Positions 7,590-56,081 of a DNA stretch of 64,000 nt are shown here, piece after piece (position 1 is the first letter of the stretch; each line of letters starts with the position of its first letter). The DNA is from Collinsella stercoris DSM 13279 (GTDB taxonomy: Bacteria > Actinomycetota > Coriobacteriia > Coriobacteriales > Coriobacteriaceae). The stretch is from contig NZ_CP085935.1 in assembly GCF_020735465.1 (NCBI RefSeq), positions 1,488,001 through 1,552,000 on the forward strand, given 5' to 3'. The position numbers were made by a program, and so were the translations under genes. The notes below the pieces were generated by a model. That model saw nothing but the letters and a program-made list of their open reading frames with translations. It ran no database searches and was not told the DNA's origin.

Positions 7590-7675
7590 TTGGTGCCGCA
7601 GGTCGGGGCGAAAGAGGAGGGTACCGCGCCTTGCGTGCGGGCACGTGCGATTGAACCCCGAGATGCGGCGCCCAA
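7590..7675. repeat. Structured palindromic element, copy A
   Basis: An imperfect inverted repeat. Outer arms GGTGCCGCA-GG-TCGGGG and CCCCGA-GA-TGCGGCGCC pair around a conserved purine internal loop. The apical part reads GCGAAAGAGGAGG, a small GC-rich hairpin, then GTGCGATTGAAC. It is the same element as copies B to E. With copy B it fills the 382-bp space between the SurA-like gene and isocitrate dehydrogenase; nothing else recognisable lies there. Confidence 0.75.
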
Positions 7676-7684
7676 GCGAACACG

Positions 7685-7791
7685 CGCGTAGCGCCTCAAG
7701 TGCCGTAGATTGGCGCGAAAGAGGAGGGAAGCGTACGAAGGTACGCGACCGACGATTGAACGCCAAGGTACGGTGCTTGAGGTGCTACGCG
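7685..7791. repeat. Structured palindromic element, copy B
   Basis: The best-formed copy. Stem CGCGTAGCGCCTCAAG pairs with CTTGAGGTGCTACGCG. It continues through CCGTA / TACGG, a GA/GG internal loop, and TTGGCG / CGCCAA. The apical region has CGAAAGAGGAGG, a perfect hairpin GCGTAC-GAAG-GTACGC, and CGATTGAACG. The base of the stem runs into the last codons and stop of isocitrate dehydrogenase, so the element would form the 3' end of that mRNA. Confidence 0.8.
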
Positions 7792-14013: not shown

Positions 14014-14369
14014 CGCGTTCTCCCCCGACTCGACTCAGCTGGCCCGTACTCGCCCACGCGCCCATGCACGCGAGCGTCCATATTCGATGTTCCCCCAGCT
14101 GACCTGGTTTTTGACCCCACACCTGCGCACCGGGACGTTTGCTCAACCGCCGCAACGGCCTCACGACTAGCCCGCTCGCCCGCGAGGCACCTATTGCCTC
14201 AGTGTGTATGACGGACGGTGCGACTGACCTCTAGGACGCGCCATGATCGCCTTTGCGCGCACGCATCGGCTTACGTGGATCCCTTTGACCGCGTCTGTCC
14301 TGGACTAGGGATGCGCAAAACGGACGTCCGCACGCTCCCGCAACCACAGCCTGGAAGGAACTGCGGGGC

Positions 14370-15679: not shown

Positions 15680-17356
15680 CTACTCGGCCTGCTGCGCAGC
15701 CGACCCGGAACCGTCCGGACCGTCCTGCTTGGGCTTTCGATTCCTGCGCCGGCGGCGCTTCTTGGGCGCATCCTCGCCCTGAGCGGCCGGATCGGCAGCC
15801 ATGCGCGTCTGGCCCTGCGCGCCACCGCCGTCTCCGGGACGACGGCGCTGCACCTTCACATCGCCCTCGGCGAGCTGATCGGCGACGGACGGGGTCTCGG
15901 GCTTGCGGGAGCGCTTGCGACGCTGACCGTTCGCACTATTCGAGCCGGCAGACGCCGCCTGAGACGTCGCGGCATCGCCCGAGGCCACGTGGGTGCGGCG
16001 ACGGCTGCGGCCCTGCGTCTCGCCTGCCGACTCGCCTGCCGTGCCGGCCTGGCGGGCGGCGCCCTCACGTGCGGCGGCCTGTGCGCCGTCACCGGAGCGG
16101 TGCCTGCGGCGACGGCCTCCCGGCGTGGCGCCCGCGGTGGTCATGTCATCGGATGCCGCAGGCATCGAGGCTCGCTCATCGCCCTCGGCCGGGCGACGAC
16201 GGCGCCTGCGACCAGGCAGCTCCTCGCCCGTCACGTCGTTCTTGCCTTGGGCCTTGCCCTTGGCCGACGCGCTCGCGGGCGCGGACGAGCCCTTGCGCCC
16301 ACGTCCGGACTTCCCGGAAGCGGCGCTCTCGAACTTTGCGGCCTCCTCCTCGCGCATGCGCTTGCGGCGCGGCGTGGGACCGGACGCCACGATGCGATCG
16401 GCGGTGGACAGACCGTCGCCCACGTCGACGCCGTTCTTGCGATCGAGCTCCATGAGGGCGAGCTGCAGGTCGGGCGAATCGAGGCGCTCGAGGACGTCGC
16501 GCGTCACGCAGTCGGGACGGCATGCGCACTTCTGCTGCTCGCAACGCTCCTTGTTCTCGCTCGTGCAGCTCATGTCGGACAGGTTCACACGGAACACCTT
16601 GCCACTCTCGAGCCGCAAGACGAGCTGCTCGCGCGGGGTGCTGTACTCCATGATGCGCGCTTTGCCGAGCGGCGTGTCGATGAGCGTCTTCTTTTTGGGC
16701 GCGCGGCTCTTGAAGTCCTTGTACGCCTCGAACTCATAGCGCAGGCAGCACATGAGGCGGCCGCACACGCCGGAGATCTTGGCGGAGTTGAGCGGCAGGT
16801 CCTGCTCCTTGGCCATGCGAATGGACACCGGCTCGAACTGCCCCCCAAAGCGCGTGCAGCACAGCTCCTGGCCGCACGTGGCGTACCCGCCCTGCAGGCG
16901 GGTCTCGTCGCGCACGCCGATCTGGCGCATGTCGACGCGCACGTGGAAGTGCGCGGAGAGGTCCTTGACCAGCTGGCGGAAGTCCACGCGGTCCTCGGCC
17001 GCGAAGTAGAACACGGCCTTCTCGCCGCCAAAAAGGTACTCCACGCCCACGGGCTTCATATCCAAGCCGTTCTTCTCCACCAGGCGGCGGAAGTCGAACA
17101 TGGCGTCCTCGCCGGCGTCGGCAAGCTCGTCGGCGCGATCGAGGTCCGCATCGGTGGCGATGCGCAGGACGGGCTTGAGCGGGGCGGCGAGCTCCTCGGG
17201 CTCAACCTCGAATGGGTCGGCCGTGACCAGGCCGATCTCGGTGCCGCGCTCGGTGGAGCAGATGGCGTGATCGCCCTCGAGGATATCGAGGTCGCGCGGA
17301 TCGAACCACAGTTCGCGGGCGGCGAAGGCAAATTTAACGGGTACGACTATGGGCAT
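15680..17356 (-). CDS. PSP1 domain protein (RicT/YaaT-like) with long basic tail
   Basis: A 558-residue protein. Residues 1-280 are a PSP1 domain with the conserved cysteine clusters CGQELCCTRFGG and VCGRLMCCLRYE and a further set, CEQQKCACRPDC. In Bacillus the homologue RicT/YaaT is part of an iron-sulfur RicAFT complex that modulates mRNA processing and development; this role is inferred here. Residues 320-558 are a disordered, Arg/Lys-rich tail with repeated RRRR clusters, suggesting nucleic-acid contact. The start overlaps the holB stop by 10 bp, and the tmk-holB-PSP1 order matches the classical Gram-positive cluster. Confidence 0.9.
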   Translation of the reverse strand: MPIVVPVKFAFAARELWFDPRDLDILEGDHAICSTERGTEIGLVTADPFEVEPEELAAPLKPVLRIATDADLDRADELADAGEDAMFDFRRLVEKNGLDMKPVGVEYLFGGEKAVFYFAAEDRVDFRQLVKDLSAHFHVRVDMRQIGVRDETRLQGGYATCGQELCCTRFGGQFEPVSIRMAKEQDLPLNSAKISGVCGRLMCCLRYEFEAYKDFKSRAPKKKTLIDTPLGKARIMEYSTPREQLVLRLESGKVFRVNLSDMSCTSENKERCEQQKCACRPDCVTRDVLERLDSPDLQLALMELDRKNGVDVGDGLSTADRIVASGPTPRRKRMREEEAAKFESAASGKSGRGRKGSSAPASASAKGKAQGKNDVTGEELPGRRRRRRPAEGDERASMPAASDDMTTAGATPGGRRRRHRSGDGAQAAAREGAARQAGTAGESAGETQGRSRRRTHVASGDAATSQAASAGSNSANGQRRKRSRKPETPSVADQLAEGDVKVQRRRPGDGGGAQGQTRMAADPAAQGEDAPKKRRRRRNRKPKQDGPDGSGSAAQQAE

Positions 17357-18678
17357 TTCAGCGCCTTCCTTATATCGAAAAGCATGACCTCGACGGCCAG
17401 CTGGGGGGTGACGTTGCGGGCGACGCGAGCCTCCGCCTGCGCCACGGCGTCAAGCGCGCGCATGACGCCCGCCGTGGTGGCACATGCGGCGATACGCTCG
17501 ACAACGTCTGAGACATCGTCGTTGACCGGCGAGCCCTGAGCGCCCTCGACCATCATGAGCACGTCGCGAAGCAAGGAGCGCACGCTCGCCAGCGCTTCCA
17601 TGATACCCGAACGCTCGCGGGCGTTCAGCTCGCGCTTATTGCGGTCTTCCAGCTGCTTTAAAGCACCACGCGAAAGATAATCCTGGTTTTGCTCGAGTAT
17701 GGCCTGCTGCGTCGATTTGACCTCGGCGAGCGGGGCGTGAATGGCACCCATGAGGTCCTTGGCACTCGCAAGGATATCGGCCTCGTCCGCACGGGCGAGC
17801 GCATCAACAGCGCGGACCATGGCTCGGCGGGCGGCCACACGATCGGCGGACTTGAGAAACTCGACCGCGCGGGCAGGGCTGCCCGCCACCGCGACCGCCA
17901 TGCGGCATCGGGCGGCCGGCTGTCCGGTGGCGTGCTCCACGGCGACAGTCGACTCCTCGAGCGACAGCGGGCGGAACGGCACGCACTGGCAACGCGACAC
18001 GATGGTGGGGAGCATGACGTCCGTGCTCGTTCCCAAGAGGATGAACGTCACGTTGGCCGGCGGCTCCTCGAGCGTCTTGAGCAGGGCGTTGGCGGTATTG
18101 GCGCGGAGCTGCTCGGCCCGGTCGATGATGTAGACCTTGCAGCGGGCGCGGATGGGCGAAAGCGCCACGTCCTCGAGCAGGTCGCGCGTCTGCGCGATGA
18201 GGTAGCCGGTGGCCGACTCGGGCGCGAGGTAGTGCACATCCGGGTGCGTTCGGCGCGCCACGCGACGGCAATCGTCGCAGGCGGCGCAAGCGCCGGGGTT
18301 GGCCACGGCCGCCGACCGCCCGGGAGTGGACGAATTGGTCGCATAACTGGAAAAACTTTGCGATTTCTCGAAGTTTTTCCAGTTATGCGACACATCGGGG
18401 GAGGCAGCCGGGGCGGGCGCGGCATCCGGCGCGGCGGCGATGCGTTCGGACGCGGCGCCGGCGTGGGCAGGCACGGCACCGGGCGCCGACGCGTTTGAGC
18501 AGAGGAGCGCCTGAGCGAGGGCCCAAGCGGCGTCGAGCTTTCCCGAACCGGGCGAGCCCAGGAAGAGATACGCGTGACTCGCGCGGCCGCTCTTGACCGC
18601 GCGAGCGAGGAAGTCGCGCACACGCGGCTGGGTGTCGAGCCTGGCGAGGAGGCTGTTGGGTGCGAGGGACTCAGGCAT
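17347..18678 (-). CDS. holB: DNA polymerase III delta prime subunit, with an inserted palindromic repeat
   Basis: The clamp-loader subunit, 443 residues, longer than usual. Walker A-like GSPGSGK is at 41-47, and the later segment LLKTLEEPPANVTFILLGT is typical. The zinc module is split: the first Cys (60) is 70 residues from CAACDDC (131-137), where about eight would be usual. This inserted stretch includes 18 residues (97-114, SHNWKNFEKSQSFSSYAT) encoded by a 54-bp palindrome (18338-18391). That palindrome has a second copy in an intergenic region at 34701-34760. The reading frame is kept, so the gene is probably functional. It starts two bases after the tmk stop. Confidence 0.93.
   Translation of the reverse strand: MPESLAPNSLLARLDTQPRVRDFLARAVKSGRASHAYLFLGSPGSGKLDAAWALAQALLCSNASAPGAVPAHAGAASERIAAAPDAAPAPAASPDVSHNWKNFEKSQSFSSYATNSSTPGRSAAVANPGACAACDDCRRVARRTHPDVHYLAPESATGYLIAQTRDLLEDVALSPIRARCKVYIIDRAEQLRANTANALLKTLEEPPANVTFILLGTSTDVMLPTIVSRCQCVPFRPLSLEESTVAVEHATGQPAARCRMAVAVAGSPARAVEFLKSADRVAARRAMVRAVDALARADEADILASAKDLMGAIHAPLAEVKSTQQAILEQNQDYLSRGALKQLEDRNKRELNARERSGIMEALASVRSLLRDVLMMVEGAQGSPVNDDVSDVVERIAACATTAGVMRALDAVAQAEARVARNVTPQLAVEVMLFDIRKALKCP
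18338..18391. repeat. 54-bp palindromic element inside holB (family I, copy 1)
   Basis: Perfect 21-bp arms (18338-18358 and 18371-18391, beginning GTCGCATAACTGG) around a 12-nt centre that itself nearly continues the pairing. Its length is a multiple of three and it stays in frame, adding 18 codons to holB. The same arms occur at 34701-34760 outside any gene, so this is an inserted repeat and not native holB sequence. Confidence 0.9.
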
Positions 18679-30774: not shown

Positions 30775-31010
30775 CCGGCAACGGGGCTCTTTTGGTGTGC
30801 GTTGCAGGTACCTCGGTGGAGTGACCGGCGACCTGGTAGCCCAACACCGAGACCCTTTTGGTGTGCGCTGCAGATACCTTGGCGAGATCGAGCGAGGCGG
30901 CATCGCCCGGCACCGGGACTCTTTTGGTATGCGTTGCAGGTCATGCGACGCGACGACGGATACCCCTCTGACCCGGCAACAGGGCCCTTTTGGTGTACAT
31001 TGCAGGTTGA
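30775..31010. repeat. Four tandem repeats with an exact 66-bp period before the ROK gene
   Basis: The core CTTTTGGTGTGCGTTGCAGG recurs with its TTTT at 30790, 30856, 30922 and 30988, always 66 bp apart. About 36 bp (from CCGGCAACRGGRCYC through the core) is conserved with several differences per copy; the remaining 30 bp is unrelated. The period is 22 codons, so the plus-strand frame of the ROK gene stays open through it, but nothing suggests it is translated. Confidence 0.75.
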
Positions 31011-31035
31011 CCCTACGTTTGAAAGGAGCCTCGCA

Positions 31036-34700: not shown

Positions 34701-34760
34701 ATGGTCGCATAACTGGAAAAACTTCCCGATTTCGCAAAGTTTTTCCAGTTATGCGACCAT
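34701..34760. repeat. Family I palindrome, intergenic copy
   Basis: The same 54-bp core as inside holB (34704-34757), here extended by ATG/CAT to a 60-bp palindrome. The arms are identical to the holB copy; the 12-nt centre differs but again nearly self-pairs. Confidence 0.9.
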
Positions 34761-34794
34761 CCGTGCACCCAAAGAAGCCACACGGGTTCCCCAA

Positions 34795-34872
34795 GTGCCG
34801 CAGATCGCCGTGAAAGAGAAGCGAAACGTGCTTGCGCACGTGAGCGACGATTGAACGGCGAAGGTGCGGCGC
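34795..34872. repeat. Structured palindromic element, copy C
   Basis: Outer stem GTGCCGCA / TGCGGCGC, internal loop GA / AGG, stem TCGCCGT / ACGGCGA. The apical part reads GAAAGAGAAG, then a perfect hairpin ACGTGC-TTGC-GCACGT, then CGACGATTGAACG. Closest to copy B. Confidence 0.75.
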
Positions 34873-34898
34873 CCTCTTCCAAAGCGGGCCTCCACAGT

Positions 34899-34971
34899 GC
34901 CCGAGGTTGCCGTGAAAGAGGAGGTGCACGCCTTGCGTGCGGGCACGTGCGATTGAACGGTAAGATCGGCT
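34899..34971. repeat. Structured palindromic element, copy D
   Basis: Stem CCGA-GG-TTGCCGT against ACGGTAA-GA-TCGG. The apical part GAAAGAGGAGGTGCACGCC, then TTGCGTGCGGGCACGTGC, then GATTGAAC is almost identical to copy A. Confidence 0.75.
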
Positions 34972-48948: not shown

Positions 48949-49016
48949 TTCGCCGAGTGTGCGCTTTTCCAACGTTTGAACCACTTCAGACGTTGGAAAA
49001 GCGCACACTCGGCGAA
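48949..49016. repeat. Family II palindrome, copy 1
   Basis: Perfect 27-bp arms starting TTCGCCGAGTGTGCGCTTTT around a 14-nt centre that pairs further with one wobble. 68 bp in all. Lies 82 bp from the end of the AbiEi-like gene. Copies 2 and 3 are at 50450 and 56019. Confidence 0.9.
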
Positions 49017-50449: not shown

Positions 50450-50520
50450 TTTTCGCCGAGTGTGCGCTTTTCCAACGTTTGAGCCGTTCAAACGTTGGAA
50501 AAGCGCACACTCGGCGAAAA
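50450..50520. repeat. Family II palindrome, copy 2
   Basis: TTTTCGCCGAGTGTGCGC arm and its complement, continuing through AACGTTTGA / TCAAACGTT to a tiny GCCG centre; nearly perfect over 71 bp. The following 50521-50710 before the PTS IIB stop shows no gene. Confidence 0.9.
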
Positions 50521-56018: not shown

Positions 56019-56081
56019 CGCCGAGTGTGCGCTTTTCCAATGTTTGAGCCGTTCAAACGTTGGAAAAGCGCACACTCGGCG
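56019..56081. repeat. Family II palindrome, copy 3
   Basis: CGCCGAGTGTGCGCTTTTCC arm and complement. One arm has AATGTTTG where the other implies AACGTTTG. The outer TT/AA pairs of copies 1 and 2 are missing. It is followed to 56213 by GC-rich repeats around GCGGGGGTCACGYTC, at 56108 and 56173. Confidence 0.85.

Follow-up and report, generated by a model that had tools for sequence, protein, structure and literature searches.

The window analysed here, a stretch of 64,000 nucleotides from the genome of Collinsella stercoris, contains holB, the gene for the delta-prime subunit of the clamp loader, with a short palindrome embedded in its coding sequence (Table 1). The gene is present once in the genome (G000, a single contig of 2.46 Mb); the other clamp-loader-like match, at 1855305, is a separate paralogue with 43% identity over a short stretch. 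The palindrome is nested within a longer insertion, specific to this lineage, that separates the first two cysteines of the zinc module by about 70 residues. The spacing between these cysteines is about 70 residues only in C. stercoris and in its sister species, Coriobacteriaceae bacterium S23M_St_26 (G053, a metagenome assembly, record JAUNDT010000006.1), and among the other relatives read it is 3-19 residues. The short form of holB is also that of the next closest species, Collinsella intestinalis (L255) among them. The linker is predicted to be disordered: in the AlphaFold2 model, residues 64-128, a 65-residue stretch with the element inside it, have pLDDT values below 50, and most of the remaining fold is confident. 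The holB match in Collinsella provencensis (L270:2501-3655) contains a stop codon if it is read straight through, which might reflect an alignment gap or a real frame break.

Table 1. Coordinates of holB, its palindromic element and related features in the window
Feature	Position	Strand	Remarks
holB, delta-prime clamp-loader subunit, 443 codons, host of the insertion	17347..18678	-	Pfam DNA_pol3_delta2, 2.5e-44
Lineage-specific insertion in holB, low complexity, predicted disordered	18289..18498	-	residues 61-130, Cys60 to Cys131
Family-A palindromic element, 54 bp	18338..18391	.	18 codons, in frame
Left arm, 21 bp	18338..18358	+	same letters in 5/5 exact copies
12-nt centre	18359..18370	.	no two copies alike; 11/12 columns vary
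Right arm, 21 bp	18371..18391	+	reverse complement of the left arm
Second family-A copy, intergenic	34704..34757	.	between genes for a DeoR-type regulator and a PfkB-type kinase
Family-B palindromes, unrelated to family A	48954-49011, 50457-50513, 56022-56078		57-58-bp cores, 24-bp arms

The element in holB reads GTCGCATAACTGGAAAAACTT-tgcgatttctcg-AAGTTTTTCCAGTTATGCGAC (arm, centre, arm). The sequence and the Pfam match agree with the original prediction that a 54-bp palindrome with perfect 21-bp arms lies inside this gene, and the open frame of holB continues through it, as had also been claimed, to give ...V-SHNWKNFEKSQSFSSYAT-N.... By our own arithmetic, a perfect inverted repeat of 21 bp with a short spacer would be expected by chance about 1e-7 times in 64 kb, and the RNA of the region is predicted to fold at -42 kcal/mol (z = -7.5). 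Because the 54-bp unit is a multiple of three and is open in two of its three frames in either direction, landing in frame requires no special mechanism. The holB copy is probably translated; none of the other holB proteins read contains its 18 residues.

The arm occurs ten times in the genome, always paired, which makes five palindromes of 54 bp each. Besides the holB copy there are four, all of them intergenic, so that the predicted recurrence of the arms in non-coding DNA and the dispersed nature of the element both hold. In the second copy in the window the palindrome is lengthened by ATG/CAT on its flanks, whereby its arms reach 34701-34760. The flanks of the five copies are unrelated to each other and have no direct repeats at the ends of the element. 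Only one of the 42 arm columns varies over the five copies, as against 11 of the 12 columns of the centres (Fisher p 1.5e-9). These copies in different contexts within a single-contig genome make an assembly artefact, or a stretch that escapes translation, extremely unlikely; palindromes are prone to misassembly, but nothing specific points to it here, and a related member is present in holB of the sister species, which was assembled independently from a metagenome, with the frame open in both genes. A separate dispersed repeat of ~70-140 bp with tandem-like units (34789-34930 and 7593-7776, 70-84% identical) adjoins the second copy.

The exact arm is a property of this species. It is absent, at up to 2-3 mismatches, from 44 congeneric genomes save for one unpaired site with three mismatches in G057, and exact scans of 84,980 GTDB genomes and of IMG/VR gave no match; BLAST of the family against plasmids returned nothing useful and identified no vector. 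A search of relatives for the arm sequence, as originally proposed, establishes this species-specificity and yet misses a wider family (family A), which is recognized by its structure. When a covariance model built from the five copies was run against 45 congeners, it recovered relatives with other arms in G047, in G053 and in C. stercoris itself, where two older copies lie at 200597 and 2249911. The later R3 model, built from all 16 members, has seven copies in C. stercoris, five in G053 and four in G047 and gave nothing in the 38 other congeners (41 genomes, strict filters), so further copies of the repeat do exist within the genus, as exact copies in one species and covarying ones in two others. 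This census combines samples with model searches under strict filters by which weak copies may be missed, and a match at G000:2242103 (30-32 bits) was excluded from the family as probably unrelated.

Members of family A are 54-60 bp long with nearly perfect stems of 21-24 bp, and the pairing within these stems has been maintained through changes in sequence. In the alignment of the 16 members, 15 of the 24 stem pairs are altered on both sides, cells with changes on both sides number 60 against 21 expected from shuffles, and 92% of the cells are paired. The covariation score is 0.428, compared with 0.162 for shuffled alignments (0/500) and with at most 0.092 when the partners are slid, a control that is partly biased toward the true structure, itself read from the same sequences. 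The inner AAAACTT and CAC/CAT-AAC parts are largely common across species and the outer arms are species-specific.

By the gene calls made here, 14 of the 16 members are intergenic (six of seven in C. stercoris), and the two genic ones are the holB copies of the sister species. The family might be suspected of serving as bidirectional intrinsic terminators or mRNA-stabilizing hairpins of common origin, since AAA precedes and TTT follows the stem in several G053 and G047 copies, others having no such flanks, and many copies lie downstream of genes. We regard this as very improbable: some copies lie between divergent genes (G053 nrdA/nrdB and G047 132653), the C. stercoris holB copy is intragenic with no T-run on either side, and terminators need no common stem sequence. 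The genes beside the copies have no common theme and the copies occur in all gene orientations, as would be expected for dispersal; a common regulon was rejected on the basis of these neighbouring genes.

Three of the sites occupied by family A are common to pairs of species. Apart from holB, a member lies between dedA and ilvE at about the same place in C. stercoris (2249911) and G047 (276633), in surrounding intergenic DNA that cannot be aligned, and members lie 229 bp upstream of secG in both G047 (884057) and G053 (C23:39922). The centres of the dedA-ilvE pair match at 10 of 12 positions, but the two are oppositely oriented with respect to the genes. Both of these intergenic places are empty in the other species examined, save that G048 may retain a weak relic upstream of secG. 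Three such coincidences in a family of 16 point either to insertions inherited from a common ancestor or to strong site preference, and the sharing of three sites among three species suggests long residence rather than active movement. The same positions could be taken to mean that a host protein peculiar to each species binds the arms, or reads the hairpins as signals, and co-evolves with them, the copies being kept where they are useful, holB included; arms that are nearly identical within a genome, differ between species and enclose free centres would fit such a partnership. Even so, we consider it unlikely, given that the two older C. stercoris copies have other arms, which leaves no genome-wide uniformity, that the neighbouring genes share no function and represent all orientations, and that the shared intergenic sites are empty in other congeners.

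The original prediction compared the element to the palindromic elements of Rickettsia (RPEs), which are inserted in frame in genes (PMC10969869). The comparison is apt in that both are dispersed palindromes found in frame in protein genes, including DNA-replication genes (here a single-copy one), and are apparently tolerated there. It is less so in other respects, as RPEs are about 150 bp long (PMC10969869), have many of their copies in genes, in contrast to two of the 16 family-A members, and are CGTC-tagged. Nor are in-frame palindromes confined to Rickettsia. A survey of several bacteria has located REPs of the GTAG and CGTC kinds inside genes, often genes for replication and repair and in one case the dnaE gene of R. 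conorii, and has suggested that the intragenic copies occupy flexible linkers (PMC3733652). REPs also have ends more conserved than their spacers, compensatory changes and in-frame intragenic copies (PMC3733652, PMC3116915). Family A resembles REPs and REPINs in its inverted conserved ends, variable spacer, capacity to form hairpins, species-specificity and mainly extragenic location, with intragenic copies in replication and repair genes. It differs from them in having four to seven copies per genome where more than 100 are usual for REPs (PMC2817692), in its long and nearly perfect stems, and in a foot that varies among copies (GTCG, GTAG, GTGG or GTTC) and is paired rather than free, with no conserved GTAG/CGTC tag. 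No linked RAYT was found for it. We have classed the element neither as an RPE nor as a tagged REP, from which it departs in length, tag, copy number and linked transposase.

Two other kinds of repeat offer partial likenesses. Bacterial MITEs such as RUP, NEMIS and ERIC are likewise short, non-autonomous, dispersed inverted repeats for which in-frame fusions are known (PMC10969869), but they measure 70-300 bp with terminal repeats of 15-30 bp (PMC3733652), and for family A neither a parent IS with these ends, although a diverged parent is possible, nor a target-site duplication was seen. The inverted repeats that template switching generates in yeast coding DNA share with family A the homogenization and lengthening of arms and the inversion of spacers, but they originate in situ and do not form a dispersed family (PMC8604942). 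Searches of Rfam at the gathering score gave no match on the hairpins, and the sub-threshold matches were mostly to microRNA precursors. In behaviour, the holB case comes close to the pattern described for intragenic REPs (PMC3733652), and the kind of event is one already known. The element is most likely a low-copy, non-autonomous palindromic repeat that behaves like a REPIN or an RPE, with a holB copy that is translated and tolerated.

The explanation that we prefer, with a probability of roughly two in three, is that low-copy, dispersed, non-autonomous hairpin repeats of 54-60 bp exist in this species, its sister and one further congener, have been mobilized and reshaped by template switching, and are tolerated in holB. 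A trans-acting enzyme that recognizes the arms would have copied the hairpin to new sites, a step that we infer from arms that are nearly identical within a genome when centres are not. Template switching during replication across the hairpin would keep the two arms of each copy complementary and lengthen them into the local flank. In holB, the insertion would have struck the disordered linker of the zinc module, where the frame could survive because the unit is 54 bp long and can be read through in two of three frames, and the copy would be translated as a tolerated addition of 18 residues for which no beneficial function need be invoked.

The traces of template switching extend to the unrelated family B. 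Over 30 copies of the two families, the extension of palindromes into unique flanking DNA sums to 77 bp; 20,000 simulations gave 11 on average and 29 at most. In one family-B copy the extension amounts to 15 bp. A family-B duplicate of 297 bp (L110:7206-7502 and L111:6234-6522, 92% identical) carries a symmetric change just outside the arms, from CAT...ATG to CGC...GCG, that alters two bases beside each arm. Arm homogenization, arm lengthening and spacer inversion are together the signature of template switching between inverted repeats, and this symmetric change and the inverted dedA-ilvE centre both match it (PMC8604942). The 58-bp core of the same duplicate, centre included, is unchanged, although its flanks have accumulated 18 substitutions over 239 columns (p 0.03), which does not support hypermutable centres as the sole cause of the contrast between arms and centres.

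Template switching accounts for the matching of arms within a copy and not for their identity from one copy to the next. The latter requires that copies be made from one common source, that they undergo conversion, or that selection act on the arms. A recent burst alone fails to explain diverged centres next to identical arms. We favour selection or copying by an arm-recognizing enzyme, by analogy with what has been argued for REPINs (PMC3116915). Less probably, homogenization might act genome-wide on the arms and spare the centres, each species thereby rewriting its young copies, that of holB included, to its own arm. If that were true, it would amount to arm-specific concerted evolution, driven by an arm-recognizing enzyme or host factor as yet undescribed. 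Against the mobile-repeat explanation as a whole counts the low number of copies per genome. Neither a target-site duplication nor an empty allele was observed at family-A sites, and no transposase tied to the family was found in the genome, which has three Y1 transposase genes. One of the three is RAYT-like (G000:826631-827612, L105:6632-7613, the gene noted at G000:827053), and it was rejected as the mobilizer on the grounds that the palindromes bordering it belong to another family, a third type, GATTTGGGGTCAGACCCCAAATC. Palindromes with 3-nt loops akin to this type occur elsewhere in C. stercoris and in G053.

Within the preferred explanation, there is the further question of whether holB was struck once or twice. 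The G053 member (C15:12934-12994) sits in the same linker of that species' own holB and is read in the frame that, as in C. stercoris, yields His-Asn from the outer arm. A single old insertion in the common ancestor, with the arms later converted to the sequence of each species by concerted evolution, would fit the presence of the long linker with a member inside it in both sister species and in no other holB read, the 90% identity of the conserved part of the two genes, and the low a priori likelihood of two independent strikes on one gene. We nevertheless think one insertion somewhat the less plausible history. The element lies 107 nt into the linker in C. stercoris and 43 nt into it in G053, and without the element the linkers measure 150 and 151 nt, which resembles two insertions into a linker that already existed; the linker interiors have no significant alignment (p 0.05-0.10), and two Xanthomonas recB genes provide a precedent in carrying different REPs at about the same site (PMC3733652). 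An alignment test gave no support to the idea that the linker had been inverted as a mirror image (107/43 nt against 43/108).

With these observations, the range of palindromic insertions in frame comes to include the Coriobacteriia and the clamp loader. As had been supposed, we found no earlier report for Collinsella or Coriobacteria in the open-licence literature. The case adds to a puzzle already noted, the preference of such insertions for genes of replication and repair (PMC3733652), and it goes beyond the routine in that the same linker of an essential replication gene houses, in both sister species, a member whose arms are specific to the species. Also unusual are the homogeneity of arms within a genome beside diverged centres, the palindromes that run into unique flanks and the traces of template switching. 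The family is a small and tractable system in which selection, mobilization and template switching during replication might be separated as causes of perfect hairpins, and a natural case for how small selfish repeats enter proteins and hold two arms matched.

Palindromes of other families are also present in these genomes. Family B has 15 copies in the C. stercoris genome plus two diverged ones, all intergenic by the gene calls made here, with an A/T position that covaries in both arms of all copies; weaker relatives occur in several congeners, and BLAST against phages gave nothing useful. Two of its copies, in inverted 99-bp repeats that are 89% identical, bracket a three-gene tRNA operon (G000:884543-885393, L106:8544-9394). 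Elsewhere in the window, a 66-bp unit is repeated four times in tandem at 30779-31014 with a repeated 38-nt core 74-82% alike, and the Rfam matches are to a tRNA and to a raiA RNA (RF03072, 145 bits) on the minus strand at 14090-14359. The congener G040 has long hairpins of its own (L128:4020 and L130:13105) with a common core GGGACGTTCYT and 16-nt loops, which suggests that palindrome families peculiar to single species may be widespread in the genus.
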